Shown here one piece after another: positions 1 through 63,949 of a DNA stretch of 64,000 nucleotides. The notes beneath the pieces are model-generated. The model made no database searches and was not told the DNA's origin. It saw nothing but the letters and a program-made list of their open reading frames with translations. The first letter of the stretch is position 1, and each line of letters opens with the position of its first letter. The position numbers and the translations under genes were made by a program. The stretch spans positions 186,001-250,000 of the forward strand of contig NZ_CP021780.1 in the NCBI RefSeq assembly GCF_002192415.1, in the 5' to 3' direction. This stretch comes from Paenibacillus donghaensis. Lineage in GTDB: Bacteria > Bacillota > Bacilli > Paenibacillales > Paenibacillaceae.

Positions 1-1490
1 ATCAGGTGTTTCAGGAATGGCTTCATGCCGAAAGCGCGCTGCGCAGCAATCAGGCGGGCCTGAATGTTGTTATGCTCCGGTGGGAGGACTGGCTGCCTTA
101 TCAAGATGAAACTGCCGTTGACTATGCCTCAATGAAGCCGGAAAATGAGCAGTTTCAAAAAATGAGAGAAACTTTGGCGGCTACCGCAGCCGATGCTGTA
201 CAAGCATTGCGTGCTTTCGCTACCGGTTCCTCCTGCCAGACCCTGCTGATGATCTGCCCGTCCTCTCAGGCTTACGAATCGCAAGCGCATTGGCGTTCCT
301 GCTTCGCAGAGCTGGAACAGCAGCTTCAGGATCAGGCTGACCAATCGGAGCTGATCCATATCATCAGGGCGCAAGCTTATCATGACTCGTACCGGATTGA
401 AGTCATCGATGACCCGGCCCGCAATAAACTGGGGCACATTCCTTTTGTAGACAAGTATTATGATTTTCTGGGGACATTACTGGTTCGTTATTATTATTCT
501 CTGCAAAGTAAACCGTACAAAGTTATCGTGGCGGATTGTGACCACACATTATGGTCGGGCGTCTGCGGCGAATCGGCCTTTCAGAAGCTTGCGGTTCAAG
601 GTGCGACATTGGAATTGCAGCATTTTCTTGTCCGGCAAAAGGAGCAGGGGATGCTGCTTTGTCTATGCAGTAAAAACAACGAAGAGGATGTTTGGCATGT
701 GTTCGACAACCGTCGGGATTTTCCGCTGAAGCGGTTGGATCTGACGGATTCCCGCATAAATTGGCAGCTTAAATCCGATAATCTCCGGTCGCTGGCCGAG
801 TCGCTTAATGTGGGCTTGGACAGTTTTATTTTTATTGACGACAATCCGGTTGAATGTGCAGAGGTTCAGGCCCGCTGTCCTGAGGTGCTTACCCTGCAGT
901 GGCCTGCGGAGGAGGAGGAAAGATTAGAGCTGCTCCGGCATACCTGGGCGTTTGACCATTTTAATGTGACAGCGGAAGATGCCAGAAGAACTGTGATGAC
1001 GCAGCAAAATCTGCAGCGTAAATCATTGCTTGAGGAGTCGGCGGATTTCCAGACTTTTCTTCAAAAGCTGGATCTTAGAGTTGATATTGTTGATATGGAA
1101 AATAAACACTTGTCCCGGGTATCCCAGCTGACAAAGCGGACAAACCAGTTCAACTTCACGACGATCCGCCGCAGTCAAAAGGAGATCCAGCTGCTGCTCG
1201 ATAAAGAGGGCTATACATGCAAAGTTGTGCATGTGCGTGACCGCTTTGGCGATTACGGCCTGGTTGGTATGATTCTTTACAAGCTTGAGGAAGACAGCCT
1301 GAAGGTGGATACCTTTATCTTGAGCTGCCGCGTATTGGGACGGGGAGTAGAGCATCAGATTATGCGGACATTGGGTGAGCTGGCGCTTGAAAAGGGCCTT
1401 TCTTATGTCGATGTCCGGTATGTAGAGACCAACAAGAATAAACCGGTGAGTGATTTTATAGCTTTTGTTCTGAAAGCAATCCCGGAGCAG
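1..1490 (+). other. FkbH-like glyceryl-loading domain (N-terminally cut)
   Basis: HAD-superfamily domain with ADCDHTLW around residue 178 and a C-terminal part ending in VDVRYVETNKNKP. The family takes D-1,3-bisphosphoglycerate, removes a phosphate and passes a glyceryl group to the adjacent ACP, here Ser578. Position directly before the first ACP and KS suggests chain initiation, as in bryostatin-type systems. Because the gene continues upstream, an internal role cannot be excluded. Confidence 0.85.
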
Positions 1491-4400
1491 TCGCAAGTTA
1501 ACCAGCCGGAGTCAGGAGCAGAGTACCGGCTTGGCGCAGCGTCTTTGAAAAAAATAACATTAGATCTGCGTAAGGAGGATTCCCGTTCCTTGGATCAACC
1601 GGCATCTCCCGTTCCTCCGCTGCAAGCCACATATCCTTATATTCTGGAGGAAATCAAAGAATTGGTTGGCAGCATTCTTTCGGTTGAGGCCGGAAGCATC
1701 GATGCTAACATCGGTTTGGAAAATTACATGAACGATTCGTTTAAAGTTGTGGAATTGACGGCTGCACTGCAGAACCGCTACCCCAATGTATCGGCTACTT
1801 TTTTGTATGAGTATTCATCATTGGCTGAAATTGCCGGCGCCTTGAGCAGTGCGGAGGAACAGCCTGCGGCCGCCTCAGAAGGAACTGAAAAAGAAGATGT
1901 GCGCGTATCGGCAGATGATTTACATAATTTTAAAGATAATAGCGGGAACTCGGAACATACCGGGGATGAACCCTATGAAGTGGCCATTGTCGGAATTAAC
2001 GGACGCTTTCCGCAGGCAGACAGTATGGCTGAATTCTGGGAGAATTTATTAAAAGGTGTGCCTTGCATTACGGAAATTCCTCCGGACCGTTGGAATACGG
2101 ATCTGTATTATGATCCCAACGGTGAATCCGCGGACAAGAGCCACAGCAAATGGGGAGGGTTCATCCAGAATGTGGACAGCTTCGACCATGCCTTTTTTGG
2201 CATTTCACCGAGGGAAGCGGAGTGTATGGACCCGCAGCAGCGAATTTTTCTGGAAGTCGTGTGGGGATTACTGGAAGATGCCTGCTACACAAGAAAAAGC
2301 CTGGATGCGAATACCGGCGTATTCGTCGGTGTAATTTCTAATGATTACAGCCTGTACGCAAGTGAAGCTGCCTTGCATGGTTTCAGCGCATACCGGGGAG
2401 CCGAATTATATCAAATTCCTAACCGGGTATCCTATTTCATGAATTTCATCGGCCCTAGTATGGCGGTAGATACGGCTTGTTCGTCATCCGGCACGGCAAT
2501 ACACCTTGCATACGAAAGTATGCGCAGAGGAGAATGCCGCAGTGCCATCGTCGGCGGGGTCAATTTATTTTTGCATCCGGGTCGTTACATTCAATATTCG
2601 CAGATGCAAATGCTGTCCAGAGACAAGGAATGCTGTCCGTTTGGGGCAAATGCGGCAGGGACGATTTTTGGCGAGGGCATTGGCGCTTTGCTGCTGAAGC
2701 CTTTGCAGCAAGCTCAATTAGATCAGGACCGGATCTATGCTGTAATCAAAGGAACAGCCGTGAATTCAGGCGGCAAGACGAATGGGTTCACTGTTCCCAA
2801 TCCTAATGCCCAGGCGGAGCTGATTGCTGCCGCGCTTAACAATGCCTGCATACCCGCATCCACCGTTAGCTATATCGAGGCGCACGGTACGGGGACACCG
2901 CTCGGAGATCCGATTGAAGTGCGGGGGCTAACCAAGGCATTCGAGCAGTGTAAAGCGGATCATGAGGCTTCCGTTGCTTCAGGTTCTTGCGCGCTGGGGT
3001 CCGTAAAATCGAATATCGGTCATCTGGAGTCCGGGGCTGCAATCGCAGGAATCATAAAGATTCTGCTGCAAATGAAGCATAAGACCATAGTACCATCGCT
3101 GAATTCATCACTTCTTAATCCATTGATTCCGTTTGCCTCCTCGCCCTTTTATGTACCCCAGAAGGCCGAGGAGTGGCGGCGGCCGGTATGGATGGACGCG
3201 AACGGTATATCGCGTCCGGCACCGCGCCGGGCAGGAATCAGCTCGTTCGGAGCAGGCGGGTCCAATGCTCATATTATTCTTGAGGAATATGAGCATACAG
3301 AGGTGTTATTAACTAAAGAACAGCGTGTTCCCATTGTAGTCCTGTCAGCCAAAAACGAGATAGCGCTGCAAATGATGGCCGAAAGGCTGAGAGCTTTTAT
3401 TGAGAACGAAGGGCTTCAGGAAGCGGAATTAGCTGCTTTGGCGTACAGCTTGCAGGTAGGCCGGGAACAGTTCAAATATCGTGCGGCATTCATTTTCGAT
3501 TCTTTGCAGGAGCTTTGCAATCAACTGGAGGATTTTGCCGAAGGACGCACCGGCTCCGGTAAAATCGTTACCGGCGTTGTGCAGAGTTCACTTTCCGGAC
3601 AGCTTCTTTTTGGCGAAAGGGAAGCAGATCAGGCCTTTCTGCAGAGTCTGCTTAAGGACAGGGAATACGCCCGGATAGCGATGTTATGGGTGATGGGGGC
3701 CGACATCTATTGGCCATGTCTGTACATGCATCGGCGTCCGCAGCGGATGAGCTTACCCGGATATCCGTTTGCCAAAACGCGCCACTGGCTTCCTGCACAG
3801 CATGAGCTTGTCAAAGGAGGGCATACAGCAACGCTGCTGCAGCCTCTGCTGCACCGCATCGATTCCCGGAAGACAGCCAAATTGGGAACGGGGCTCGTCT
3901 TTGAAACGACTCTGGTTCCGTGGCATTCCCTTATTCAAAGTTCCTCTATGAGCGGCAAGCCCGTGCTTCCGGCAGCGGCTTATATAGAAATGGTTCGTGC
4001 AGCGATGGATGAGGCCGCAGGGGCTGCTGATATTGTCATTGAGAACATCGATTTGTTGGAACCGCTTACCGTTGAAGTGCAGACCCGGGTGTATCTCTCA
4101 CTGAGCGCTGTGGATGAACACCAATATGTGTTCTGCATCCAGTCAGACGGAGAAGACCCTAAGCTTTACAGCAAGGGGACTGTGCGTGCGGACGAGGGCA
4201 GGGCGGCATTTTTCGACATCTCAGCAATTGTAGAGGACCGGTTATCCCAGGTAGACCCGGAAACGTTCTATTCAGCGTGTGCGAAATCTGAAGTTCATCT
4301 TGATGAGATGCAGCGCCAAGTGACCCGGTTGTGGGACAACGGCAGGGATCTGCTGGCGGAGCTGCGCATGAAAGAGAGCGAGTTAGGAAGAGGGTACGGC

Positions 4401-7400
4401 ATTCACCCGGCTATGCTGGAATGCGCTTTACAGCTGCAGGCCTATTGTTCGGAAGAAAACGATGAGATCGCAGGCATGAAAGAGGTTCGAATAGCCGGAA
4501 AAACGCCGGCTGCCGCATATGCCTATATACAGCGTGACGAGCATGGGGGCAGGAAACAGGCTTCCTTACTGAACCCGGCCGGTGAAGTCATTGTTCACAT
4601 CGGCCAGTTGCTTACGCGCAGACAGAAGAAGGCGTGGGACGAGCTGATGTATGTGCCGGTGTGGGAAGAGCTGGAACGGCTGCCTGTCCGGAAGGATATC
4701 CCGCAAACGGTGCTGATTGTCGATTCTGAATCCTCGGCTTCGCTCAGCGAAACTTTGAATGAATATTATTCAAACAAATTTCCAAAGCCGCAGATGATCC
4801 ATATCCGGTTAAGTGAGCTTACGGAGCAGTTGCAGGACCGTGAGAATAGCTGGTCGTGCGGCATTCATGATATTAACGGATTTGAGGTATGCCTGAGGCA
4901 ATATGCCTCCATTGATTGCTTGTATTCCCTGTCGGACTGCCGGTCTTATGCAGCGACGGTTGACATAGAAGATTTGATACAAAGCCAGTCGGCCAATGAG
5001 GTTCAGCTGCTGAGGCTTATCAAAGCCCTCCGGCAAAAAGAGACGGACGGAAAGCGCATTGCTACTTTTATCATTACTCAGGACAACTGCCGGATCACGG
5101 ATTCAGCGATTAACCCTTACGGCGGCGGAGTTACAGGGCTTACGTATTCTATTGCACACGGAGACTACCGTTTTTCGGTAAGAAATATTGATATTTCTGC
5201 TGAGGATCTTGCAACAGAGGAAAAGCGAAGCACCTTGCTGGAAAATATCGTTAATGAGGAAGCTTCTGACCGCGGAGACGTTGTAAAGCTCCATTCAGGG
5301 CGCAGATATAAACAAAGCTTCATCAAGCTGGATACAGAACGGTTCAAACAAACGCAAGGACTGCAAAAGAACGGCGTCTACGTCATTTTAGGAGGAAGCG
5401 GCTTAGTCGGCGGTATAATGACCAGGTATCTGATGCAGAATTATCAGGCCAAAGTGGTGTGGATCGGACGTTCTCCCGAATCGTCACCTGCGGTACAAGA
5501 AAAACTGGATTCATTCGCAGCGCTGGGTGAGCCTCCGCTTTATGTACAGGCTGACGCAACGAGTCTGGAACAATTGCAGCAAGCGGTAGCCCGGATTAAA
5601 AGGCATTATCCGAACATTAACGGAGCTATCTTCTCCGGAATTGTAATTTCATTTGAAAATTCGGTTGCCCAAACAACCGAACGTGAATTTAAGGACATCT
5701 TAGATGTCAAATCACAAGGAAGCATTCATTTTTATAAAGCCTTCGAGCGGGAAAAGCTGGATTTCTTATGCTATTTTTCGTCGGGGCAAGCCTTCTCCTT
5801 CTCAGGAGCGGCAACCTTATCGGCCTATGCATCAGGGATTACCTTTGCGGATACCTTTGTCAGGTACATGCGGCCGAAGGCAGCTTTTCCTATCGGCATC
5901 ATCAACTGGGGATTCTGGATGCCGGCAGAGCTTAACCCTTCACTCAGCAAAAATATCGGATTTATTGAGCCGTTTGAAGGCTTCAGCTGCTTTGAACAAT
6001 TCACGGCGATGCTGCGGATGGACACAGTCCGGCAAGTCATCTGCTTAAAAGCTACGGAGCCTGTGCTTGAATTAATGAAATGCAAAGAGTCGGAGACTGT
6101 TTCGGCACTGGAGAGATACTCCAGACCGGAAGTAGGGACGCTGTGGAATCAAGAGATTGTAATGGAAGATCAATTGCCGGAGTTATATGCGATTAATGAT
6201 CAGGAAGAGCTTCAATTGTGGATGGTAAAGCTGTTGTATGTGCAGATGCAGGAAATGGGCTTTTTTAACCGTAAAGGGATTCGGATAGAGACACAGGCGC
6301 TCCGTAAAGTCACGGGCACTCTGGATAAATTTGACCGCATGGTTGACGAATGCCTGGGCTTGCTGGAGGCAAAAGGTTTTATCCGGCGCGAGGGGAATGC
6401 GGTAATTGCCACGGAACAGCCTCAGCTCCGCGATGGAGCTGGTGTATGGAGCATGTGGGAGACGGCAAAGGATGTTTATTTACGTGATGCAAACTGGCAG
6501 ACAAAAGTACGGCTGGTAGATGCCTGCTTACGGAAGCTGCCGGATATTCTGCGGGGTACGGTGATGGCCACAGACGTGTTATTTCCGGAATCCTCCATGA
6601 AGATGCTGGAAGGCGTCTATAAAGGGAATGCCTTGTCAGATTATTTCAATAATGTGGTAGCTAATATAATCGTGGAATACGTGCGCCGGCGTGTTCAGAC
6701 CGATCCTTTGACAAAGGTGAAAATTATTGAGGTAGGGGCGGGAACGGGAGGCACCAGCGCCATGGTGTTTGCCAAGCTGAAGCCTTACAGTGAATACGTA
6801 GAGTACTGTTATACGGATATTTCCAAAGCGTTTTTGTTGTTTGCAAAGGAGAAGTACGGCCCTGATAATCCATATATTCAATTTAAATTAAACAATATCG
6901 AGAAGCCGCTGGCAGATCAAAATATTAAAGCCGGAAGCTACGATATCGCGATTGCAACAAATTGCCTGCATGCGACCAAAAATATGAACCGCACCATGCG
7001 TAATATGAAGGCAGTTCTGAAAGCCGGCGGATTATTACTGTTAAATGAAGACACGGATAAGATGATTTTTACAACACTGACATTCGGTCTTTTGGACGGC
7101 TGGTGGTTGTACGAAGATGAGCATTTGCGTATACCGGGTGCTCCGCTCTTGTATCCAGAAACCTGGAAGGCTGTTCTAGAGGAGGAAGGCTTTTGTGATG
7201 TTGGATTTCCTGCTAGCGCAGCCCGCGGTTTAGGCCAGCAGATCATTGCAGCAGAGAGCAATGGCGTAATACGCCAGCCAATAACCGGCAAAACGCTGTC
7301 TCCGCAAAATGAGAGTGCCTCATCCCAAGAGAAAAAGGGTTCAGCGGACCCTTCTATAAAAATGAAGCAGCAGCTAACGGCGGCAGGTGAGCGTAAATTA

Positions 7401-7826
7401 AAAGCAGAGGCCGTAACGTCGGCAGCCGGAAGCGCAGGCGAAAGTCTTGAGTCCTACGTGAAGAGTGTGATTCTTGACAAGCTATCAAAATCGCTGAAAG
7501 TAACAGTGGACAGTATCGATACCGCGGCAGCCTTTTCTGATTACGGGGTGGATTCCATAATCGGGATTATGTTTGTAAAACAGACCGGTGAGGGGCTTGG
7601 AATTCAATTAAACAGCGCAATTCTGTTTGATTATCCGACAGTAGACCGGTTAAGCCGGTTTATCATCAAGAACTACAAAGACCAGCTGCAGGCAAATGTG
7701 AAGTTGCCGGTAAAGCCTGCTGCACTGTCCAGCCCGAATCCTGATGATTTTCTGGATTTGCTGAAAGAACAATTTTTTGCAGATGATATTTCTATCGATT
7801 CGTTAATCCAAAAGATCCGACAATAA
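1..7826 (+). CDS. PKS1: trans-AT PKS with FkbH loading unit and module 1 (5' partial)
   Basis: Starts an assembly line by loading a glycerate-type starter and performing one methylating extension. Numbering from the GTG at 6: FkbH-like HAD domain 1-~500 with DxDxT at D177/D179/T181; ACP with NDS site Ser578; KS ~656-1096 with Cys825, HGTGT His960 and NIGH; DH-like region ~1276-1540; KR with GGSGLVGG from 1796 and Tyr1941; C-methyltransferase with the SAM loop EVGAGTGG at 2242-2249; ACP Ser2517; C-terminal docking helix. No AT follows the KS. The frame stays open to base 3, and the first residues (Q-V-F-Q-E-W) match the interior of the FkbH N-terminal region, usually preceded by about 40-50 residues. 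The gene therefore begins upstream and the GTG is not the start. The DH lacks its catalytic His and Asp. Stop is 19 bases before PKS2. Confidence 0.93.
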   Translation, partial: QVFQEWLHAESALRSNQAGLNVVMLRWEDWLPYQDETAVDYASMKPENEQFQKMRETLAATAADAVQALRAFATGSSCQTLLMICPSSQAYESQAHWRSCFAELEQQLQDQADQSELIHIIRAQAYHDSYRIEVIDDPARNKLGHIPFVDKYYDFLGTLLVRYYYSLQSKPYKVIVADCDHTLWSGVCGESAFQKLAVQGATLELQHFLVRQKEQGMLLCLCSKNNEEDVWHVFDNRRDFPLKRLDLTDSRINWQLKSDNLRSLAESLNVGLDSFIFIDDNPVECAEVQARCPEVLTLQWPAEEEERLELLRHTWAFDHFNVTAEDARRTVMTQQNLQRKSLLEESADFQTFLQKLDLRVDIVDMENKHLSRVSQLTKRTNQFNFTTIRRSQKEIQLLLDKEGYTCKVVHVRDRFGDYGLVGMILYKLEEDSLKVDTFILSCRVLGRGVEHQIMRTLGELALEKGLSYVDVRYVETNKNKPVSDFIAFVLKAIPEQSQVNQPESGAEYRLGAASLKKITLDLRKEDSRSLDQPASPVPPLQATYPYILEEIKELVGSILSVEAGSIDANIGLENYMNDSFKVVELTAALQNRYPNVSATFLYEYSSLAEIAGALSSAEEQPAAASEGTEKEDVRVSADDLHNFKDNSGNSEHTGDEPYEVAIVGINGRFPQADSMAEFWENLLKGVPCITEIPPDRWNTDLYYDPNGESADKSHSKWGGFIQNVDSFDHAFFGISPREAECMDPQQRIFLEVVWGLLEDACYTRKSLDANTGVFVGVISNDYSLYASEAALHGFSAYRGAELYQIPNRVSYFMNFIGPSMAVDTACSSSGTAIHLAYESMRRGECRSAIVGGVNLFLHPGRYIQYSQMQMLSRDKECCPFGANAAGTIFGEGIGALLLKPLQQAQLDQDRIYAVIKGTAVNSGGKTNGFTVPNPNAQAELIAAALNNACIPASTVSYIEAHGTGTPLGDPIEVRGLTKAFEQCKADHEASVASGSCALGSVKSNIGHLESGAAIAGIIKILLQMKHKTIVPSLNSSLLNPLIPFASSPFYVPQKAEEWRRPVWMDANGISRPAPRRAGISSFGAGGSNAHIILEEYEHTEVLLTKEQRVPIVVLSAKNEIALQMMAERLRAFIENEGLQEAELAALAYSLQVGREQFKYRAAFIFDSLQELCNQLEDFAEGRTGSGKIVTGVVQSSLSGQLLFGEREADQAFLQSLLKDREYARIAMLWVMGADIYWPCLYMHRRPQRMSLPGYPFAKTRHWLPAQHELVKGGHTATLLQPLLHRIDSRKTAKLGTGLVFETTLVPWHSLIQSSSMSGKPVLPAAAYIEMVRAAMDEAAGAADIVIENIDLLEPLTVEVQTRVYLSLSAVDEHQYVFCIQSDGEDPKLYSKGTVRADEGRAAFFDISAIVEDRLSQVDPETFYSACAKSEVHLDEMQRQVTRLWDNGRDLLAELRMKESELGRGYGIHPAMLECALQLQAYCSEENDEIAGMKEVRIAGKTPAAAYAYIQRDEHGGRKQASLLNPAGEVIVHIGQLLTRRQKKAWDELMYVPVWEELERLPVRKDIPQTVLIVDSESSASLSETLNEYYSNKFPKPQMIHIRLSELTEQLQDRENSWSCGIHDINGFEVCLRQYASIDCLYSLSDCRSYAATVDIEDLIQSQSANEVQLLRLIKALRQKETDGKRIATFIITQDNCRITDSAINPYGGGVTGLTYSIAHGDYRFSVRNIDISAEDLATEEKRSTLLENIVNEEASDRGDVVKLHSGRRYKQSFIKLDTERFKQTQGLQKNGVYVILGGSGLVGGIMTRYLMQNYQAKVVWIGRSPESSPAVQEKLDSFAALGEPPLYVQADATSLEQLQQAVARIKRHYPNINGAIFSGIVISFENSVAQTTEREFKDILDVKSQGSIHFYKAFEREKLDFLCYFSSGQAFSFSGAATLSAYASGITFADTFVRYMRPKAAFPIGIINWGFWMPAELNPSLSKNIGFIEPFEGFSCFEQFTAMLRMDTVRQVICLKATEPVLELMKCKESETVSALERYSRPEVGTLWNQEIVMEDQLPELYAINDQEELQLWMVKLLYVQMQEMGFFNRKGIRIETQALRKVTGTLDKFDRMVDECLGLLEAKGFIRREGNAVIATEQPQLRDGAGVWSMWETAKDVYLRDANWQTKVRLVDACLRKLPDILRGTVMATDVLFPESSMKMLEGVYKGNALSDYFNNVVANIIVEYVRRRVQTDPLTKVKIIEVGAGTGGTSAMVFAKLKPYSEYVEYCYTDISKAFLLFAKEKYGPDNPYIQFKLNNIEKPLADQNIKAGSYDIAIATNCLHATKNMNRTMRNMKAVLKAGGLLLLNEDTDKMIFTTLTFGLLDGWWLYEDEHLRIPGAPLLYPETWKAVLEEEGFCDVGFPASAARGLGQQIIAAESNGVIRQPITGKTLSPQNESASSQEKKGSADPSIKMKQQLTAAGERKLKAEAVTSAAGSAGESLESYVKSVILDKLSKSLKVTVDSIDTAAAFSDYGVDSIIGIMFVKQTGEGLGIQLNSAILFDYPTVDRLSRFIIKNYKDQLQANVKLPVKPAALSSPNPDDFLDLLKEQFFADDISIDSLIQKIRQ
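3830..4620 (+). other. Degenerate dehydratase domain of module 1
   Basis: The fold is recognisable from LLQPLLHR and KPVLPAAAYIEM. In the HxxxGxxxxP motif the His position is Ser; the nearest His lies six residues earlier. In the second motif the catalytic Asp is Glu (HPAMLECALQ, where the active paralogues have HPxxxDAALQ). Dehydration by this domain is unlikely, so module 1 should leave a beta-hydroxyl. Confidence 0.75.
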
Positions 7827-19326: not shown

Positions 19327-19440
19327 AAGATTTTCTTCAATACGTTCTGACCGAAGTGAAGAACAAGCGTGTGGACAAAGAGGATGCCATTGCCTGGATC
19401 GAACAATTTCAGACTGCAGGAACGGTCCGGGAACAGCATA
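19200..19440 (+). other. Split-module docking junction KS4 | DH4
   Basis: Module 4 is cut between KS and DH. PKS2 ends with amphipathic helices (FDKTYLDRLLDDVLNEA, then ALIEIAQTR). PKS3 begins with MKDFLQYVLTEVKNKR and KEDAIAWIEQFQ. This is the pattern of four-helix-bundle docking domains at KS/DH splits in trans-AT systems. The ATGA overlap at 19323-19326 suggests coupled translation of the two partners. Confidence 0.75.
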
Positions 19441-55322: not shown

Positions 55323-55331
55323 AACATGACA

Positions 55332-58300
55332 ATGAGTAATGAGTTGGATATTGCCATTATCGGAATGTCGTGTAAGTTCCCGCAAGCTGACACAACAGAG
55401 CAATTCTGGGGAAATCTTGCGAGCGGAAAGGAGACGGTTGTTTTCTTTTCCGATGAGGAATTGGCCGATAAAGGGGTTCCTCAAGCGCTGCTGTCTCATC
55501 CGGACTATATCAAAGCAGCGTCAGTACTGGATCATCCTGAGCATTTCGATGCGGAGTTTTTTGGATATAATCCGAGTGAAGCCACCAGCATGGACCCCCA
55601 GCATCGCATTTTTCTGGAGAATTGCTGGCAGACGTTTGAAGATGCAGGATATGATCCCAGCGCTTTTGCCGGTGATATCGGAGTTTTTGCCGGCCTCGCC
55701 ATGAACACGTATTTATCCGACGTTCTGATCCGAAACAGTGACTTTATGCAGCATGTCAGCCCGGAGCAATTGATGATCGGCAACGATAAAGATTATCTGA
55801 CCACGATGGTTTCATACAAACTGGGTCTCAAAGGTCCAAGCCTCAATGTTAATACAGCTTGTTCGACCTCCCTGGTGGCCATCCATTTGGCCAGACAAAG
55901 CCTGCTGCTGGGCGAATGCGATATGGCACTTGCCGGAGGTGTCTCGATTGTGCTTCCGAATAGCAAGGGGTATATGTACAAAAAAGATGGTATCCAATCC
56001 GCCGATGGCCATTGCCGCGCGTTTGATGCCAAAGCAAAAGGAACTGTTTGGGGCGATGGCTGCGGGGTTGTGCTTCTCAAGCGGCTCGCTGATGCTCAGG
56101 CAGATGGAGATCACATTTATGCGGTTATAAAGGGTTCGGCAGTTACCAATGACGGCTCCAATAAGGTTGGCTATACAGCACCGGGCGTCGAGGGGCAAAG
56201 TAAAGCTATAGTGGAAGCGTTGGCTGTATCCGGCCAATCTCCTGAAGATATTCAATACGTAGAAATGCACGGTACAGGCACACAATTGGGCGATATGGTT
56301 GAGATGACGGCTATAACTCAGGCGTATCAGTCTTATACCGAGCAAACAGAATTTTGTGCGATTGGATCGGTTAAAACGAACATAGGCCACTTGAATGCGG
56401 CTGCCGGCATTGCAGGACTGATTAAGACAGTTCTCGCAATGAATCATCAGCAAATACCGCCGAGTATTAATTATGATGAGCCCAACCCGAAAATTGATTT
56501 TAAGAACAGCCCATTCTATGTCAATTCGCGCTTGTCCGACTGGAAAACCGGCTCTGAACCACGCCGGGCAGGGGTAAGCTCTATGGGCATCGGCGGGACC
56601 AATTGCCATATCATCATTGAAGAGGGGCCGGTAACCATGCCGTCAAAGGCAGCCAGCCCGGATGATGTTCATACGCTTATCCTGTCAGCCCGTTCGGCGG
56701 AGGCTTTGGAACAACGAATAGACCAGTTGGCAGACTACTTGGAGGCACATCCAACGTTGTCCCTTCAGGATGTAGCGTTCACCTTACAATGTGGCCGCCG
56801 GTCTTTTGCCTATCGGACGGCATTGCGCTGCTCTTCACTGAATGAAGCCGTGCACACGCTGAGAAACCGGACATTGCATCCGTTATTTAATGCTCATTCT
56901 CCCAGAGAGACGGTCGGAGATCAGCTCTTTTTGTGGCTATCCGGCCAAGAGAATGACTGGCAGGACATCTGGGCGGGACAGACTGCGCATCGTATACCAT
57001 TGCCGGCGTATCCATTCCAACGAAAACGGTTTTGGGTAGAGCCCGATCCTGAGACGGCTTCATCAGAGCACACAGCTTCTGAACATTATTATAAAAAACT
57101 GGATGATATGGCGGATTGGTTCTATTTGCCGTCCTGGAAAGAAACATCATTACCCTTCACGGCTCACAACAGCGAAGCGAAAGTCTATTGGGTATTTGCC
57201 GATAATCTGCAGATCGGAACAGGCCTTACACGGCAGCTAAAAGCAGAAGGTCATACCGTAATTGTGATCGAGCCTGGCGATAGCTATGCTTGCTTAAATT
57301 CCAATTTATTTGTCCTGAGTCCCGGTGATCAGGAGGGTTACAGACAAATGATCCGGACCCTCCAGGCAGGGAATCTGCTGCCGGACCGCATACTGTTTAT
57401 GTGGAGCTTGGCGTGTGAGGAACCAGAAGCAGGGGAAATGAACCTGGAAGCATTAATCAAGACCCAGAACAACGGATTATTCAGTATTCTTTATCTGACA
57501 CAGGCGTTTGCTGATTTAAGTGTGAAGAAGCCATGTGAATTTATTGCGCTAACCAACAATGTATTCAATGTAACCGGCAATGAGCAAATCCATATTCAGG
57601 CAAGCACCATTCCAGGTCTGTGTACCGTTATGCAGCAGGAATATGATCATATGCGTTGCAGGGTCATTGATCTGCTGCTTACAGCACATGGCGAAGTGTC
57701 AATCGAGGCGATTGTACATTGGATAATGAGGGAACTGTACAGCGATTCGAGCGAGTTCGTCTGTGCCTACAGATATTCCAAACGCTTCATTCGAGGTTTT
57801 GAACCTGTACGTATTGAAGCGAATGCTCCTCACCAGCGCCCTGTCCGGCAGGAAGGGACATATCTGGTTTTTGGCGGCTTGGAGGCTGTTGGTTATTCGG
57901 TATCCGAGTATATTGCCAAGAATAAGGGCGCTACGCTCCTGATGATGGAAGAAGAGGGATTTCCTAAGCAGGAGGAATGGGAGCAGTGGGTCGAGCGTAA
58001 TGGAGAAGAAGATGCAATCAGCATCAAGATCCAAAATGCACTGAAGCTCCTGGATCATGGGGCAGTTTATATAGGGACAATTGCAGACCTGGAAAAAGAC
58101 GAACGGTATATCGGAGCTCAGGAGCAGCGGTATGGCCAGATCCGGGGGATCGTCCATGCATCCGGATCTTCCGGCGTTAAGCGAAGAGAATCAATGCGAA
58201 CATTTACCCCGGACATGTGGCAGGGTCATTTTAAAGCTGTAAATTACAGTCTGATGATTCTGGACAGGGCATTTGCTGACCGGGATTTGGACTTCCGGTT

Positions 58301-58955
58301 CATTATCAGCGGGCTGGTGTCTGTATTAGGCGGGTATGGATCGATCAGTATTGCAACTGTATCCAATCATGTGAAAGCCTTTGTGGCTAAGCAAAGCCGG
58401 ACAGCCGGGCAATCGTGGGTCGTGCAATGCTGGGATGCTTCAGAAACGGTATGGGGTAGAGTAAAACAATACATGCCGGTAACCATGTATGATCGGATTG
58501 AGGATGTGGCACTAACCGATGAGCAGGGCATTCAGTGTCTGGAAAGAACTTTCGCTGTAAGGGATGTCCTTGAACTGGAGATTTCGGCGACCAATCTGAT
58601 TAACCGGTATAATCGCTGGGTCAGATTGAAGGACAGAAAGACATTGGAAGAGAACAAAGATGAAAGTGTGCGGCACTCTCGTCCTAACCTGCCGACAGCC
58701 TACGTGGCTGCCAGCCAGCCGATAGAACAATTACTGGAGCGCGTTTTCAGCAGTCTGCTTGGTATGGACCAAGTTGGTATGAATGATGACTTTTTTGAGC
58801 TCGGAGGACATTCCTTATTGGGGGTCCAACTGGTATCCAAGCTACAGGATTTGTATCAGATAGAGATTGATTTGCCTATTATTTATAGCTATCCGACCAT
58901 TTCCAAATTGTCCGCTTACTTGGAGTCAACAGGAAAAGCAATGGTTACCGCTTAA
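55332..58955 (+). CDS. PKS6: KS - inactive KR - carrier protein, atypical single module
   Basis: One PKS module, placed after the C-A-PCP and so possibly the last extension. Numbering from ATG 55332: KS ~4-430 with NTACSTS (Cys177), HGTGT and NIGH all kept; a linker ending YPFQRKRFW; a KR-like two-part region ~590-1080; a carrier with FFELGGHS (Ser1161). The KS motifs look more like AT-containing PKSs than like the other KS domains here, yet no AT lies between KS and KR. The KR has VFGGLEAVG for the TGGxGGLG loop and no Tyr in the catalytic segment, so ketoreduction is unlikely. There is no thioesterase. A different origin from the rest of the line is my inference. The substrate could be the aminoacyl chain on PKS5, but it could also be a separate precursor. 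The MATE gene follows after 39 bases. Confidence 0.9.
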   Translation: MSNELDIAIIGMSCKFPQADTTEQFWGNLASGKETVVFFSDEELADKGVPQALLSHPDYIKAASVLDHPEHFDAEFFGYNPSEATSMDPQHRIFLENCWQTFEDAGYDPSAFAGDIGVFAGLAMNTYLSDVLIRNSDFMQHVSPEQLMIGNDKDYLTTMVSYKLGLKGPSLNVNTACSTSLVAIHLARQSLLLGECDMALAGGVSIVLPNSKGYMYKKDGIQSADGHCRAFDAKAKGTVWGDGCGVVLLKRLADAQADGDHIYAVIKGSAVTNDGSNKVGYTAPGVEGQSKAIVEALAVSGQSPEDIQYVEMHGTGTQLGDMVEMTAITQAYQSYTEQTEFCAIGSVKTNIGHLNAAAGIAGLIKTVLAMNHQQIPPSINYDEPNPKIDFKNSPFYVNSRLSDWKTGSEPRRAGVSSMGIGGTNCHIIIEEGPVTMPSKAASPDDVHTLILSARSAEALEQRIDQLADYLEAHPTLSLQDVAFTLQCGRRSFAYRTALRCSSLNEAVHTLRNRTLHPLFNAHSPRETVGDQLFLWLSGQENDWQDIWAGQTAHRIPLPAYPFQRKRFWVEPDPETASSEHTASEHYYKKLDDMADWFYLPSWKETSLPFTAHNSEAKVYWVFADNLQIGTGLTRQLKAEGHTVIVIEPGDSYACLNSNLFVLSPGDQEGYRQMIRTLQAGNLLPDRILFMWSLACEEPEAGEMNLEALIKTQNNGLFSILYLTQAFADLSVKKPCEFIALTNNVFNVTGNEQIHIQASTIPGLCTVMQQEYDHMRCRVIDLLLTAHGEVSIEAIVHWIMRELYSDSSEFVCAYRYSKRFIRGFEPVRIEANAPHQRPVRQEGTYLVFGGLEAVGYSVSEYIAKNKGATLLMMEEEGFPKQEEWEQWVERNGEEDAISIKIQNALKLLDHGAVYIGTIADLEKDERYIGAQEQRYGQIRGIVHASGSSGVKRRESMRTFTPDMWQGHFKAVNYSLMILDRAFADRDLDFRFIISGLVSVLGGYGSISIATVSNHVKAFVAKQSRTAGQSWVVQCWDASETVWGRVKQYMPVTMYDRIEDVALTDEQGIQCLERTFAVRDVLELEISATNLINRYNRWVRLKDRKTLEENKDESVRHSRPNLPTAYVAASQPIEQLLERVFSSLLGMDQVGMNDDFFELGGHSLLGVQLVSKLQDLYQIEIDLPIIYSYPTISKLSAYLESTGKAMVTA
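57090..58570 (+). other. Catalytically dead ketoreductase region in PKS6
   Basis: Aligned on the SVLGGYG segment, the KR catalytic Tyr (QADYAAAN in the other modules) falls on Ile or Ala (SISIATVSN). The nucleotide loop reads VFGGLEAVG. A structural role, holding KS and carrier together, is likely. Confidence 0.75.
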
Positions 58956-58994: not shown

Positions 58995-60419
58995 ATGGAG
59001 AATAATATTGAGATTTCATCTTCAGAGTCTAAAGCGCTTACACAGGAAAAAAATAATGACGCAGAGGGGATGCTAAGCGGGCCTATTACCCGCACCACCA
59101 TTAAATTGAGCATTCCTATTTTTATTGCCCAAATATTAATTTTTGCCTATGTCATGATTGATACTTTGTTTATATCAATGATTGATAAAAACTCCTCGGC
59201 GCTGTTGGCCGGAACAGGTCTGGTATATCCGATTTACATGGTTATCTTCAACATCTCAACGAGTTTATTTGTCGGATTAAGCTCCGTTGCTTCACGGGGA
59301 ATCGGTCAAAAAAATAATGATGTAATTAAAAAAATCGCGGATTCCGCCCTCGTGCTCTCTTTAATTCTAGGAGTCGTTACACTCGTTGCGGGTATTCTGT
59401 TTGGCGAACAAATTCTTCAATTGCTGGCAGGCAGCCAAATAACACCGGAAGCGCTGCAGTATGGAGTTGATTTCTTCTATTACATGCTGCCTTGTATGGT
59501 GCTGCTGCTATTCTTCAATGCTTTCGGCGGCATTCTTCAAGGGGAAGGAAAAGCAAACCAGGTTGGATTGGCAATGATGTCTTCTCCTATATTAAACGCG
59601 ATTTTAAATCCGATTTTTATCTTTGGCTTAAACATGGGTGTAAAAGGCTCCGGGCTCGCCAGCTCGATTGCTACTGCAGTACCTATTGTTTATTTTGTAG
59701 CTGTACTGCTAGGCAAGAAGGTGAAGTTGCGGCTTACGCTAAATCCTGCTAACAGCAGCAAGAAGCTTATCATGGAAATATTACGGATTGGCGTACCTGC
59801 CTCCATCGGTTTGCTTCTAATTAATACCTCTACGATGATCTTGAATAATGTTGTGGGATCAATCAGTGAAACGGCGATGAATGCCTGGATATTAGTAAGC
59901 CGGACAGATCAGCTGTTTTTGATTCCTGCAACAGCGATTGCTATGGCTACCATACCAATGATTGGTCAAAACTTTGGCAGCGGCGATCATCGGAGAGCGC
60001 GGGCTATTTATAATGCAAATCTGCGGTTATGTCTCGGAGTTTGTTTGGTATTAACGGTCTTCTACATTATATTTGCTCCGCAGGTAATGAGCTGGTTCAC
60101 GAACATTCAGGAAGTTATTGATGACAGTGTCCGGCAGGTGAGACTCTTGGCAATTACGTCAGCAGGGGTAGCCGGAATTACAGTCATTGGATCAGCCTTT
60201 CAAGGCACAGGCAGACCGGCTCCGAATTTGATTAATGATATCGTTCGGATGGTTATTATGTCCACGCCGCTGTGGATGCACCTTTTCCATATTTCGGTAA
60301 CCGACATGACACCTGTGTATATCAGCTTAGCGGTAGGGAATCTTTTGCCTTTTGTCATTGCCTTAGTATGGGGCAGATATCATTTTAATCATCTGCAAAG
60401 TAACACGAAATCATTATAA
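58995..60419 (+). CDS. MATE-family multidrug efflux transporter
   Basis: A 474-residue polytopic membrane protein with two repeated halves of hydrophobic helices, as in the MATE family (about 12 membrane segments, Na+ or H+ driven). Visible signs are an early helix after TIKLSIPIFIAQILIF, a mid-helix segment GEGKANQVGLAMMSSPILNAILNPIF, shown here only as landmarks GEGKANQ and NAILNPIF, and a C-terminal part with FQGTGRPAPNLI. Length is normal and no signal peptide is expected. AAAGGAGA lies 6 bases before the ATG. Lying between PKS6 and the branching cassette, it probably exports the product and may give self-resistance. A role as a general drug pump cannot be excluded. Confidence 0.92.
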   Translation: MENNIEISSSESKALTQEKNNDAEGMLSGPITRTTIKLSIPIFIAQILIFAYVMIDTLFISMIDKNSSALLAGTGLVYPIYMVIFNISTSLFVGLSSVASRGIGQKNNDVIKKIADSALVLSLILGVVTLVAGILFGEQILQLLAGSQITPEALQYGVDFFYYMLPCMVLLLFFNAFGGILQGEGKANQVGLAMMSSPILNAILNPIFIFGLNMGVKGSGLASSIATAVPIVYFVAVLLGKKVKLRLTLNPANSSKKLIMEILRIGVPASIGLLLINTSTMILNNVVGSISETAMNAWILVSRTDQLFLIPATAIAMATIPMIGQNFGSGDHRRARAIYNANLRLCLGVCLVLTVFYIIFAPQVMSWFTNIQEVIDDSVRQVRLLAITSAGVAGITVIGSAFQGTGRPAPNLINDIVRMVIMSTPLWMHLFHISVTDMTPVYISLAVGNLLPFVIALVWGRYHFNHLQSNTKSL

Positions 60420-60445: not shown

Positions 60446-60694
60446 ATGAGTACGAATGAGTTATTTCAGATCATTACTGGCCATATCCGGGAGGTGCTCC
60501 CCGAACTAAGTGATTATCCTATACAGCCTGAGGACCGCATGGCTGATTTGGGTGCAAATTCGATAGACCGTGCTGAAATCATTATGATGACGATGGACAC
60601 CTTGTCTTTGCAGATCCCGCGTATAGAGCTGTTTGGTGTCAATAACATTGGAGAATTAGCCGAGGTGTTACATGCCAAATTGCAAGCCAACTGA
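60446..60694 (+). CDS. acpK: Free-standing donor acyl carrier protein of the beta-branching cassette
   Basis: An 82-residue ACP with MADLGANSIDRAEI, phosphopantetheine site Ser39. The form matches AcpK of the bacillaene pathway, which carries malonyl, decarboxylated to acetyl by the next gene product and handed to the HMG-CoA-synthase-like enzyme. GAGGAGG precedes the ATG by 7 bases. The 3' end overlaps the KS gene by 23 bases, suggesting coupled translation. The symbol follows the Bacillus homologue by position and motif. Confidence 0.9.
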   Translation: MSTNELFQIITGHIREVLPELSDYPIQPEDRMADLGANSIDRAEIIMMTMDTLSLQIPRIELFGVNNIGELAEVLHAKLQAN

Positions 60695-61910
60695 TTTGTA
60701 TATAACCGGTCTTGGTGTCACTTCGTCTATTGGACAAGGAGTTGGCAGCTTTTCGGCTGCCATGTTCGCAGGTAGACAGAAGTTCACAGTAATGCAGCGG
60801 CCTGGCCGTCAGCATGGCAATGCCTTTATTGGTGCTGAAATTACGGAGTTATCTTCACCGGAGCGTGTGCCTGCCAAGATATGGAGATCTTCCTCTTTGT
60901 CTGGACAGGTAGCTATGGTGACTTTGGAGGAGGCCTGGCAAGATGCTAATCTTGATCAGGCTGATCCAAAGCGCATTGGTCTGGTTATCGGCGGGTCTAA
61001 TTTACAGCAAAGAGATTTGGTCCAACTGTATGAACGCTATCGTGATAAAGTCTCTTTTGTCCCGCCCTCTTACGGTGTTTCTTTTTTAGACAGTGATTTA
61101 TGCGGATTGTGCACTCAGCAGTTTGGCATTCAAGGTTTTGCTTATACCGTCGGAGGTGCATCAGCCAGCGGTCAAGTGGCCGTCATTCAGGCGATTCAGG
61201 CTGTACAGTCCGGTCAGGTTGATACGTGCATTGCAATGGGTGCAATGCTTGACATTTCCTATTGGGAATGTCAAGCCCTGCAGTCTCTGGGGGCAATGGG
61301 TACAGAGCGCTATGCGCACGATCCCGCTAAAGCCTGCCGGCCTTTTGATCAGGGCAGAGACGGCTTCATTTATGGGGAAAACTGCGGTGTTCTTGTCATT
61401 GAGCGGGCTGAAACCGCAGCGCTTCGGCAGGCAGCCCGGTATGCCAAGATATCAGGGTGGGCTATGGGCATGGATGCCAACCGAAATCCGAATCCTTCTT
61501 ATGAAGGAGAAGTTCGTGTGATTAAGGAGGCACTTAAGCACGCAGGACTGTCGGCAAAAGATATCGATTATATCAATCCCCATGGCACAGGATCGCCGGC
61601 AGGGGATGATGTGGAACTGCGGGCTTTGCGGGACTGCGGGCTCTCACATGCTTCTATAAACGCGACCAAGTCCTTGATTGGGCACGGATTAAGCGCGGCA
61701 GGTACGATAGAGCTCATTGCTACGGTTCTTCAGATGAGAGCTTCGCGTATGCATCCGACCCTGAATCTGATTGAGCCGATCGATCCCTCGTTGAACTGGG
61801 TTAGGGAGAAAGAGGCCAGCCGCCTGATTAACCATGCTATCAGCTTAAGTATGGGATTCGGTGGTATGAATACCGCAGTTTGTTTGCAGAAAATCGAATC
61901 CGCCGAATAA
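60672..61910 (+). CDS. pksF: Malonyl-ACP decarboxylase, KS-like with Ser for Cys (PksF type)
   Basis: A 412-residue KAS-fold protein in which the usual cysteine is Ser164 (GGASASG), while HGTGS and KSLIGH are kept. KS variants of this kind in branching cassettes decarboxylate malonyl-ACP to acetyl-ACP and do not condense. GAGGTG precedes the ATG inside the end of the ACP gene. It works with the ACP before it and the HMGS after it. An ordinary FabF-type elongation role is ruled out by the serine. The gene ends 18 bases before the HMGS start I chose. Confidence 0.92.
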   Translation: MPNCKPTDLYITGLGVTSSIGQGVGSFSAAMFAGRQKFTVMQRPGRQHGNAFIGAEITELSSPERVPAKIWRSSSLSGQVAMVTLEEAWQDANLDQADPKRIGLVIGGSNLQQRDLVQLYERYRDKVSFVPPSYGVSFLDSDLCGLCTQQFGIQGFAYTVGGASASGQVAVIQAIQAVQSGQVDTCIAMGAMLDISYWECQALQSLGAMGTERYAHDPAKACRPFDQGRDGFIYGENCGVLVIERAETAALRQAARYAKISGWAMGMDANRNPNPSYEGEVRVIKEALKHAGLSAKDIDYINPHGTGSPAGDDVELRALRDCGLSHASINATKSLIGHGLSAAGTIELIATVLQMRASRMHPTLNLIEPIDPSLNWVREKEASRLINHAISLSMGFGGMNTAVCLQKIESAE

Positions 61911-61911
61911 T

Positions 61912-61918: not shown

Positions 61919-61928
61919 AATGAATACC

Positions 61929-63188
61929 ATGGCAGTAGGCATTGAGGCAATGAATATTTTTGGTGGAACAGCTTATCTGGATGTGATGCAGTTAGCCAAG
62001 TACCGTGAGTTGGATACAAGCCGGTTTGAAAATTTATTAATGAAGGAAAAAGCGGTGGCGCTTCCGTATGAGGACCCGGTTACATTTGGCGTTAACGCCG
62101 CCAAGCCTCTGATCGATTCCTTATCGCCGAGTGATAAGAACCGCATTGAACTGCTGATTACCTGTACGGAATCGGGTATCGATTTGAGTAAATCGATGAG
62201 CTCATATATTCACCATTATTTGGGTCTGAGCCGTCATTGCCGGATGTTTGAATTGAAAAACGCATGTTATTCCGGGACAGCCGGATTACAGACAGCAATT
62301 CAGTTTATTCTGTCGCAGACATCGCCGGGTGCCAAAGCGCTTGTTATTGCGACTGATATTTCGCGCTTCATGGCAGCGGAGCGAGGCGGCGCTTTGTCGA
62401 TGGGCGGAGCTTATGCCGAACCGAGCTCGGGTGCGGGGGCTGTCGCCCTGCTGGTCAGTGAACAGCCGCATGTATTTCAGGTCGATGTAGGTGCCAATGG
62501 GTACTACGGCTACGAGGTTTGCGATACCTGCCGTCCGGTTCCGGATAGTGAGGTTGGTGATGCTGACCTGTCTCTGTTGTCCTACTTGGATTGCTGTGAA
62601 CAAGCGTATCTCGCATATAAGAACAAGGTTGAAGGGGCTGATTACCGGAACACCTTTCAATACCTTGCTTTCCATACTCCGTTCGGCGGAATGGTAAAAG
62701 GGGCACACCGCACGATGATGCGTAAAATGGCCAAGGCCGCTCCTCCCGAGATTGAAGCAGATTATGCGCAAAGGGTTGTTCCGGGATTGGTCTATTGTCA
62801 GCGCGTCGGAAATGTAATGGGAGCTACCTCGCTGTTGTCCTTGGCAAGTACAATCGATAACGGACTGTTTGACCGACCTAAACGGATCGGGTGCTTTTCA
62901 TACGGCTCAGGCTGTTGCTCCGAGTTTTACAGCGGTGTCGTGACGGCACAGGGGCAGGAGCGTCAGCGTGCGTTTGCGATTCAGCGTCACTTGGATGAAC
63001 GATATTCGTTGTCTATGGATGAATATGAGACGCTGCTGACCGGCAGCAGCGCTGTCAAATTTGGTACGCGGAACGTCGAATTGGACGTTAACCTGATCCC
63101 GGGCGCAGTTACATCGCAAAGAGGGAAAAGCCGTTTGGTACTGGAGCGTATTCACGAATTTCACCGGGAATACCGGTGGATTTCATGA
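61929..63188 (+). CDS. pksG: HMG-CoA-synthase-like beta-branching enzyme (PksG type)
   Basis: Adds the acetyl group from the donor ACP to the beta-ketone of the chain on the tandem ACPs of module 6, an aldol step giving an HMG-like intermediate. 419 residues from ATG 61929. The acyl-enzyme cysteine is Cys113 in KNACYSGTAG, and the N-terminus MAVGIEAMNIFGG and the segment KAVALPYEDPVTFGVNAAK are typical of PksG. The order ACP-KS-HMGS-ECH1-ECH2 is that of the bacillaene cassette. The 3' end overlaps the ECH1 gene. Confidence 0.95.
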   Translation: MAVGIEAMNIFGGTAYLDVMQLAKYRELDTSRFENLLMKEKAVALPYEDPVTFGVNAAKPLIDSLSPSDKNRIELLITCTESGIDLSKSMSSYIHHYLGLSRHCRMFELKNACYSGTAGLQTAIQFILSQTSPGAKALVIATDISRFMAAERGGALSMGGAYAEPSSGAGAVALLVSEQPHVFQVDVGANGYYGYEVCDTCRPVPDSEVGDADLSLLSYLDCCEQAYLAYKNKVEGADYRNTFQYLAFHTPFGGMVKGAHRTMMRKMAKAAPPEIEADYAQRVVPGLVYCQRVGNVMGATSLLSLASTIDNGLFDRPKRIGCFSYGSGCCSEFYSGVVTAQGQERQRAFAIQRHLDERYSLSMDEYETLLTGSSAVKFGTRNVELDVNLIPGAVTSQRGKSRLVLERIHEFHREYRWIS

Positions 63189-63949
63189 GTTACCGCACTG
63201 TTCAGGTCAGATTTCAGGGTCCTGTCTGCTTTATTCAGCTTCATCGTCCGGAGGCGGGCAATACGATAAATGGTCTTTTGGTGAAGGAGTGCCGTCAGGT
63301 GCTTGACACATGCGGGCCGGACACCAAAATCATTGTCTGGGAGGGGCTGCCGGAGGTATTTTGCGGCGGTGCGGATTTTCAGGAGATTCATGCAGAGGCG
63401 GTGTCAGGCCAGAGCGGTGATAATAACCCGGAGCTTCTATATGATCTGTGGCTAAGAATGGCTGAAGAACCTGTAATCAACGTTGCTCATGTAAGGGGAA
63501 AGGCCAATGCCGGAGGCATTGGTTTTGTTGCAGCCTGTGACATTGTTATAGCAGATGCGTCAGCTCAATTTGGCCTGTCCGAGTTGTTGTTTGGATTGTT
63601 TCCGGCCTGTGTTCTGCCTTTTCTCATCCGGCGCATCGGCTTTCAGAAAGCGCATTATTTAACTTTAATGACGCATCCGATTACAGTGGACCAGGCTCAG
63701 GCGTGGGGATTGGTCGATGCCTGCGAACCGGAAAGCGGGCCTTTACTGCGCAAGCATTTGCTTCGTTTACAATGCATATCCAAACAAGGCATTTTGCGAT
63801 ATAAACGGTACGCCTCAGAAATGGATGGATCGCTTCATACTGCCAGAGCCGGAGCCATAGCTGCCAATAAGGAAGTATTCGCCGATTCCCGAAACCGGGA
63901 GGCAATTTTTCGCTATATCGAAACCGGGACTTTTCCCTGGGAAGAATAA
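63176..63949 (+). CDS. pksH: ECH1, enoyl-CoA-hydratase-like dehydratase (PksH type)
   Basis: Crotonase-fold enzyme that dehydrates the HMG-like intermediate on the branching ACP. Family marks are EVFCGGADFQEI, HVRGKANAGGIGF (oxyanion hole region) and FGLSELLFGLFPACVLPFL. 257 residues from GTG 63176; MDFMSYRTVQVRFQ resembles the MDLVTYQT start I recall for Bacillus PksH. An ATG at 63185 forms an ATGA overlap with the HMGS stop and has GGTGGA 4 bases before it, so it is a serious alternative (254 residues). The next gene starts 37 bases on, as expected for ECH2. Confidence 0.92.
   Translation: MDFMSYRTVQVRFQGPVCFIQLHRPEAGNTINGLLVKECRQVLDTCGPDTKIIVWEGLPEVFCGGADFQEIHAEAVSGQSGDNNPELLYDLWLRMAEEPVINVAHVRGKANAGGIGFVAACDIVIADASAQFGLSELLFGLFPACVLPFLIRRIGFQKAHYLTLMTHPITVDQAQAWGLVDACEPESGPLLRKHLLRLQCISKQGILRYKRYASEMDGSLHTARAGAIAANKEVFADSRNREAIFRYIETGTFPWEE

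Follow-up and report, generated by a model that had tools for sequence, protein, structure and literature searches.

How does a trans-acyltransferase (trans-AT) polyketide synthase/nonribosomal peptide synthetase (PKS/NRPS) line release its chain when its last protein carries no thioesterase, and what does such a line make? The question is raised by a gene cluster of Paenibacillus donghaensis, analysed here in positions 186001-250000 of the single-contig genome (NZ_CP021780.1, 8.54 Mb), a stretch of 64,000 nucleotides called the window below. The genes, their domain order, the catalytic residues kept or lost, and the retention of the whole line in a second species, Paenibacillus dendrobii, are read directly. 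The cluster is predicted to be a complete orphan line making an oxazole polyketide-peptide that is released by ring closure to a five-membered lactam, and this reading is considered probable. Its most unusual feature appears to be the last protein, PksF, with a terminal ketoreductase (KR) that belongs to a conserved family and, judged by its residues, should be catalytically dead.

Six large open frames, PksA to PksF, all on the + strand, begin about 129 bases ahead of the window and extend to position 58955. Their domains were assigned with Pfam/NCBIfam, motif reading and a second pass of hidden Markov models (HMMs), which were built from the cluster's own domains and are therefore not independent of them. 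The order is FkbH-ACP-KS1-DH-KR-MT-ACP in PksA, KS2-DH-KR-ACP-KS3-DH-KR-ACP-KS4 in PksB, DH-ACP-KS5-DH-KR-ACP-ACP-KS6-ACP-ACP-ER-KS7-DH-KR in PksC, ACP-ACP-KS8-ACP-Cy-Cy in PksD, A-PCP-Ox-Ox-KS9-ACP-KS10-DH-KR-ACP-KS11-ACP-C-A-PCP in PksE, and KS12-KR-PCP in PksF (KS, ketosynthase; DH, dehydratase; ER, enoyl reductase; MT, methyltransferase; Cy, heterocyclization; A, adenylation; Ox, oxidation; C, condensation; ACP and PCP, carriers). By Pfam/NCBIfam, an AT domain is present in none of the six proteins and separate AT genes are present in the cluster; besides the twelve KS domains there is one separate KS gene with Ser replacing the active Cys. The original prediction of a 12-KS trans-AT PKS/NRPS line with this domain set was confirmed by Pfam/NCBIfam and the own-domain HMMs. 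Its placement of the whole cluster within 1..63949 did not hold, since the cluster extends past the window on both sides, with the start of PksA and an AT-PfaD gene upstream and ECH2, a hydrolase and a second AT gene downstream.

PksF (55326..58955) consists of KS12 (55326-56696), a pseudo-KR (57243-58655) and a PCP (58713-58940). Instead of the Lys, Ser, Tyr and Asn of active KRs, the pseudo-KR has V, G, I and S, so that PksF does not qualify as a terminal reducing module, and GGLEAVG replaces GGxGGLG. With about 1200 residues, an intact KS, loss of the KR Tyr, a GGHS-type carrier and no thioesterase, the protein falls into a KS-pseudoKR-PCP group, a grouping of our own that comprises 35 of the best 120 among 7995 protein matches. 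These 35, the P. donghaensis and P. dendrobii copies included, are stand-alone KS-KR-PCP proteins of 1100-1300 residues, and have lost Lys in every case, Tyr in 31 and Asn in 34; Lys is kept in 79, Tyr in 81 and Asn in 77 of the 85 longer matches. Concerning the four longer matches without Tyr, no KR was found in P0023 and P0048 by the own-domain HMMs, P0052, which has an AT, is a true but weaker pseudo-KR match (273 bits), and P0108 was classed by motif scan only. Sources of the stand-alone proteins include Bacillus paralicheniformis, Paenibacillus sp. NPDC056933, Kitasatospora xanthocidica, Corallococcus exercitus and Pyxidicoccus sp. MCy9557. The protein had been described at first as an atypical KS-KR-carrier protein; unusual it is, and what that description missed is the dead KR and its conserved family. 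Genomes with the pseudo-KR protein number three of 394 in the taxonomic family, P. donghaensis counted, and one of 398 in a phylum sample and likewise in a class sample, P. donghaensis being that one each time. A search at the level of the taxonomic order (34 of 392 at E 1e-60) was dropped as a family count because ordinary KR modules were mixed in.

The ratio dN/dS between P. donghaensis and P. dendrobii is 0.109 for the pseudo-KR versus 0.108, 0.118 and 0.115 for the active KR2, KR3 and KR10, and 0.075 for KR1; with dS near or above 1, these and the ratios below are rough. In a structure model of the pseudo-KR (predicted local distance difference test, pLDDT, 83.8; 25 sequences), the top match in the PDB was 6ulw (E 2.9e-29), then 5d2e, KR-containing, and the modelled fold is still that of a PKS KR. 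The lost residues, the constraint like that of active KRs and the KR-like model together point to a domain that is maintained but should not reduce by the usual mechanism. In a KS tree (54 sequences, FastTree, midpoint root, with few references and no transATor clades), KS12 and its equivalent in G313, the third of the family genomes with the pseudo-KR protein, group with the bacillaene KS that follows C-A-PCP (0.992), as expected for an aminoacyl-accepting KS. The trans-AT cluster of G313 has a different upstream order and ends in KS-ACP-C-A-PCP followed by KS-pseudoKR-PCP; its PksF is 53% identical over 1216 residues and its KS-to-PCP part 46% identical over 1854. Two different clusters with this tail are few. 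Protein searches with KS11-ACP-C-A-PCP (best 120 of 7983 and of 7987 matches) returned long multi-domain proteins, none of them named Pyxidicoccus MCy9557.

In the proposed biosynthesis, FkbH would load a glyceryl (or lactyl) starter, module 1 would add an alpha-methyl unit, modules 2-5 would build up to four conjugated double bonds, with module 4 borrowing a KR, the HMG-CoA synthase (HMGS) cassette would install a beta-methyl at module 6, whose ER would reduce, and module 7 would add a double bond. KS8 would pass the chain to Cy-Cy/A/Ox-Ox for formation of an oxazole from serine, KS9 would hand it on without extension, module 10 would add a double bond, KS11 would leave a beta-keto group, and C-A-PCP would add one amino acid (Ser-like code, uncertain); the PfaD-type ER, acting in trans, may saturate some of the double bonds. 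An oxazole-containing, beta-methylated polyketide-peptide, as first predicted, is supported by the domain order, the Ser-type A code, the ACPs with a flag Trp and the full HMGS cassette. KS12 would add the last malonyl unit to the aminoacyl chain, and since the pseudo-KR should not reduce it, the chain end would be R-CO-CH2-CO-NH-CHR'-CO-CH2-CO-S-PCP. By chemical reasoning, unreduced beta-keto groups flanking an amino acid allow closure to an N-acyl tetramate or a pyrrolone, and release would most likely be ring closure to the former or to a 3-acyl pyrrol-2-one, while the pseudo-KR would hold or steer the chain. PksA-F gave no Pfam match (E 0.001) to a thioesterase, a terminal reductase or a terminal condensation domain, and no thioesterase was found in the neighbouring genes scanned. 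A wider proposal is put forward tentatively, namely that KS-pseudoKR-PCP may be an unrecognised, widely scattered type of terminal module whose KR, having lost redox function, was re-used as a chain-releasing cyclase, turning a bis-beta-dicarbonyl into a pyrrolone or tetramate with no thioesterase.

Several points weigh against ring closure by this route and against parts of the chain as drawn. The catalytic Ser, lost in PksF, is kept in 28 of the 35 stand-alone proteins, and four of them keep Tyr. The Ser-like reading of A2 is uncertain, module 4 has no KR, so that the tetraene is partly an assumption, and the KS tree places KS1, KS2 and KS7 poorly relative to known KSs. Tetramate or pyrrolone release is a prediction from gene content, and no metabolite of this line was recognised in the open-licence literature searched. 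The Pyxidicoccus sp. MCy9557 protein P0030 resembles PksF in its KS-pseudoKR-PCP architecture (46% identical over 99%) and comes from a strain with the name of the pyxipyrrolone producer, whose cluster is listed as BGC0001751 in an excerpt of PMC10731318; from the strain name only we infer that P0030 lies in the pyxipyrrolone cluster, and the ring in that compound's name may arise at this protein. Finally, the second AT-like protein (L011:1484-2458 in the downstream stretch, Pfam/NCBIfam) reads GASLG instead of GHSLG and could act as a hydrolase in trans.

This last point favours a linear acid, in which case PksF would extend once, the second AT-like protein as trans hydrolase or an unlinked thioesterase would cut, and the pseudo-KR would be structural only. 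GASLG for GHSLG is a change known from proofreading acyl hydrolases, and inactive PKS KRs often serve as scaffolds. Set against this are the lack of a thioesterase in the megasynthases and the neighbouring genes scanned, a pseudo-KR about as constrained as the active KRs, and family-specific pseudo-KR motifs kept across distant bacteria, and a linear acid is possible but somewhat doubtful. Alternatively, KS12 may not extend, leaving a beta-ketoacyl-aminoacyl chain on PCP12 that KS12 or PksF, as the cyclase, would close to a 3-acyl tetramate in a Dieckmann-type reaction. The KR-less KS11-ACP followed by C-A-PCP, present both here and in G313, is the classic 3-acyl tetramate set-up, but KS12 retains Cys, His and His and groups with the bacillaene KS after C-A-PCP, and PksF has its own carrier domain, which makes a non-extending KS12 unlikely.

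PksA (3..7826 in the window) begins with an FkbH domain (501-1508; TIGR01686, 289 bits, cut-off 146.65) and ACP0 (1635-1856), an FkbH loading module, followed by KS1 (1947-3350), DH1 (3831-4631), KR1 (5361-6068), C-MT (6426-7253) and ACP1 (7452-7679). DH1 is dead by its motifs, with the catalytic His gone and Asp changed to Glu, and KR1 reads Ser-Tyr-Ile instead of Ser-Tyr-Asn; both changes are found in P. dendrobii. Module 1 may give an alpha-methyl beta-hydroxy unit, because the comparable KR variants Ser-Tyr-Cys and Ser-Tyr-Ser are treated as active in an excerpt of the phthoxazolin paper (PMC5764310). PksB (7846..19326) contains KS2 (8002-9312), a degenerate ACP (9388-9615), DH2 (10075-10953), KR2 (11509-12234), ACP2 (12364-12588), KS3 (12742-14157), DH3 (14644-15504), KR3 (16096-16821), ACP3 (16942-17166) and KS4 (17305-18714). 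The degenerate ACP lies between KS2 and the usual post-KS linker and has Pro for Ser (GLDP), a change kept in P. dendrobii, where this carrier is 75% identical. PksC (19323..33761) starts with DH4 (19437-20309) and ACP4 (20412-20636), which complete the KR-less module 4; an olefin is the simplest reading of its product, because KS5, the acceptor, stands beside KS3 in the tree (0.898). KS5 (20802-22199), DH5 (22689-23552) and KR5 (24132-24857) are followed by two ACPs, the first of which (24909-25133) reads GFDA, without Ser, in P. donghaensis and P. dendrobii alike and shows the lowest identity between the two, 51%, among the 33 stretches tested, and the second of which is ACP5 (25236-25460). 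Module 7 comprises KS7 (29574-30947), DH7 (31422-32282) and KR7 (32847-33572) in PksC.

The six DHs other than DH1 retain HxxxGxxxxP and Asp by motif reading. KR2, KR3, KR5, KR7 and KR10 keep the catalytic Tyr and Asn and have the B-type motif Asp, which predicts E double bonds. The polyene-type modules of the original prediction are borne out, with six dehydrating modules, and qualified by the dead DH1 and by module 4 without KR. Cys-His-His is intact in ten of the twelve KS domains, the exceptions being KS8 and KS9, and the tree joins KS3-KS6 in a single clade (0.999) with the KS from a KS-ACP-ACP module of bacillaene. A special closeness of KS2 to structure 7zma (706 bits) was dropped, as that chain has two KS domains and the score is their sum.

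Module 6 consists of KS6 (25611-27029), two tandem beta-branch ACPs (27708-27935 and 28164-28391) and an ER (28470-29447) in PksC. Both ACPs carry GLDSVVGVEW in both species, and a flag Trp in an ACP marks beta-branching. The complete HMGS cassette is present on the + strand: an 82-residue carrier read as the donor ACP (60446..60694), a decarboxylase-type KS with active-site Cys changed to Ser (60672..61910), an HMG-CoA-synthase-like enzyme (HCS, 61920..63188, Cys motif NACYSG), the enoyl-CoA hydratase-like ECH1 (63176..63949), and ECH2 just past the window end (L011:44-745).

The azole unit spans PksD (33767..39520) and the beginning of PksE (39517..55218). PksD carries two ACPs (33893-34120 and 34193-34420), KS8 (34520-35896), an ACP (36434-36661), Cy1 (36734-38071) and Cy2 (38159-39466), and PksE continues with A1 (39604-41106), PCP (41230-41451), Ox1 (41509-42156), Ox2 (42274-42936), KS9 (42964-44343), ACP9 (44821-45045), KS10-DH-KR-ACP (45154-49578), KS11 (49747-51156), ACP11 (51700-51927), C (51949-53346), A2 (53359-54879) and PCP (54916-55140). 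An azole-forming NRPS module is indicated by the Cy motif, the Ser-type A domain, the PCP and two SagB/nitroreductase-type Ox domains. Cy2 has DMLIADGNS (DxxxxDxxS), Cy1 has Gly at the position of this Ser, and the A1 code, its positions mapped by hand on GrsA, is D-V-W-H-Y-S-L-V-D, the serine type. At the HGTGT position, EANGVAS is found in KS8 and EAAAPGAG in KS9, with the same changes in P. dendrobii, so the claim of two dead KSs flanking the oxazole module is borne out by the loss of the HGTGT His from both, in either species. Their dN/dS values are 0.087 (KS8) and 0.086 (KS9) versus 0.043-0.084 for the other ten KSs.

A comparison of the A-PCP-Ox-Ox-KS9 region with named genomes matched nine loci. 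Tandem Ox together with A and PCP occurs in seven of them: L014-L018, P. dendrobii (judged by alignment) and L019, whose second Ox and KS are encoded by a separate open frame that overlaps the first. No Ox was found in the remaining two, L020 and L021. Cy-Cy precedes A-PCP-Ox-Ox in L014-L018, and none was seen in L019. In all five other loci aligned (L014-L018), the HGTGT His is missing from the post-azole KS. The KS before the azole has lost it in none of these, although the surrounding motif differs in L015, L016, L018 and, to a small degree, L017; among the aligned loci, a pre-azole KS without His is found only in P. donghaensis and P. dendrobii. KS9 and KS10 group with their positional equivalents from the other azole loci (support 1.0 each), and the unit is found in several phyla with a non-extending KS behind it, so it looks like a block, moving or inherited together. 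A full-length match to A-PCP-Ox-Ox was found in two of 100 genus genomes, P. donghaensis included, among the matches listed best first. Two similar azole-module loci, L017 and L019, lie about 115 kb apart on one contig of a Mycale hentscheli metagenome-assembled genome (WLWN01000001.1).

We infer that L017 and L019 form the pateamine locus, as the isolate name matches the specimen MH-Pat of the pateamine paper. Excerpts of that paper (PMC7157528) describe a module with two copies each of heterocyclization, adenylation and oxidation domains, and a later module 7 in which beta-branching ACPs and an ER give a reduced beta-methyl group. The pateamine line ('Candidatus Patea custodiens') thus resembles the present one in its azole module and its beta-branch ACP and ER module, and the post-azole KS of L017, like KS9, has no HGTGT His; it differs by a thiazole, a dilactone, an azole module richer in carrier domains, and a second A-type domain. 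The two lines are not the same, the azole regions being 45% (L017) and 49% (L019) identical in the best segment and the surrounding order different in the stretches fetched. The set of domains had been called unfamiliar as a combination. No matching characterised cluster was found in the open-licence literature, but an azole unit followed by a non-extending KS is not unusual in itself: it recurs across phyla and resembles the pateamine thiazole module, and only the His loss before the azole is peculiar to P. donghaensis and P. dendrobii among the loci aligned.

Other known systems share single parts. A cluster of Bacillus velezensis DMB05 (L067-L068), presumably bacillaene by its gene order, has the HMGS cassette genes, a KS-ACP-ACP beta-branch module and, after C-A-PCP, a KS related to KS12, and differs in that its annotated stretch has neither an azole module nor a pseudo-KR protein. 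The 806-kb B. velezensis 'plasmid' NZ_CP083716.1 looks like a chromosome piece because it carries mutS, mutL, hfq and glnA, and its bacillaene cluster seems to lack the first large gene of the usual order. According to an excerpt of PMC5764310, the oxazolomycin/phthoxazolin lines are likewise trans-AT, with an oxazole, an inactive ACP and KS0-ACP pairs, but there the line begins with a formyl-glycyl unit that, with an ATP-pyrophosphatase-type protein, gives rise to the oxazole, and no mid-chain Cy-A-Ox makes it. For althiomycin and chalkophomycin, an amino acid and one malonyl module are proposed to give a pyrrolinone, in the excerpts available (PMC3445576, PMC11085572). The althiomycin line differs in ending in a thioesterase (PMC3445576), and ChmP of chalkophomycin lacks a thioesterase, its extra domain being a reductase-like, non-redox R0 instead of a KR as in PksF (PMC11085572); both have an O-methyltransferase, and none was found in the present cluster. 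Most building blocks are of known types in a new order, and the product is not recognised in the open-licence literature. That this is a known pathway with a published product is improbable: the comparison was confined to open-licence papers, yet none joins trans-AT, oxazole, FkbH and Paenibacillus, those on trans-AT, polyketide, oxazole and Paenibacillus deal with other subjects, judging from the title and opening of the abstract, and none of the related papers listed fits by title.

The nearest named relative of the cluster is that of P. dendrobii HJL G12 (L013; L042-L046), a genome counted in the same genus. From AT-PfaD to the second AT, all six megasynthases included, the genes recur in the same order with 71-93% identity, and the dead or altered KS8, KS9, DH1, KR1, two ACPs and pseudo-KR are common to both species; the P. 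dendrobii cluster differs in its open metallo-hydrolase and in the side of its STAS-type gene. Values of dN/dS were 0.042-0.216 across the 33 domain stretches tested, a set that leaves out DH3, DH5, DH7, DH10, KR5, KR7 and most carrier domains. A decaying cluster that makes nothing is very improbable: several domains are dead and the metallo-hydrolase gene has an in-frame stop here and is open in P. dendrobii, but this is only an accessory gene, the six megasynthase frames are open and under purifying selection, and the dead or altered domains are the same in both species.

Before PksA lie a phosphopantetheinyl transferase gene and an AT fused to a PfaD-type reductase (L010:15485-17857 in the upstream stretch; Pfam/NCBIfam). 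After PksF, a MATE-family exporter (58995..60419, +) and the HMGS cassette are followed by the metallo-beta-lactamase-fold hydrolase gene (L011:726-1445 = C1:250726-251445; one in-frame stop here, 224 residues in P. dendrobii), the second AT-like gene and a STAS-type gene, the match of which is below the Pfam cut-off. The flanks, compared over about 36 kb upstream and 33 kb downstream of the cluster here and about 25 kb and 6 kb, respectively, in P. dendrobii, share little: one 76-residue frame, phosphopantetheinyl-transferase-sized genes (36%) and the STAS-type gene, which is on the opposite side of the cluster in P. dendrobii. A 971-residue flank protein had only a weak match elsewhere in the P. 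dendrobii genome. RpoB (1003-residue stretch) of P. donghaensis is 94% identical to that of P. dendrobii and 92% to that of G313, so the two carriers of the cluster are not particularly closely related. Upstream (L010:9858-13469) there are group II introns with reverse transcriptases, and downstream (L011:7404-9014) further group II intron matches, together with two tandem tyrosine recombinases beside the cluster (L011:4907-6855) and tRNA pairs at L010:3293-3467 and L010:9556-9722. Transfer of the cluster between strains is plausible. Plasmid searches gave one short DNA match and distant PKS/NRPS matches only. The same genome contains further PKS regions at C1:1686828-1703555 and 2974627-3017559, each with an NRPS-type A-domain match inside or adjoining.

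An intact and apparently working line that two species have conserved could realistically yield a new oxazole polyene-peptide. PksF is the part of it most worth a bench test: a dead-KR terminal protein stands behind the same tail in two otherwise different clusters and is also encoded by distant bacteria, and the question whether a pseudo-enzyme became a release catalyst bears on how chains end in trans-AT lines without a thioesterase.

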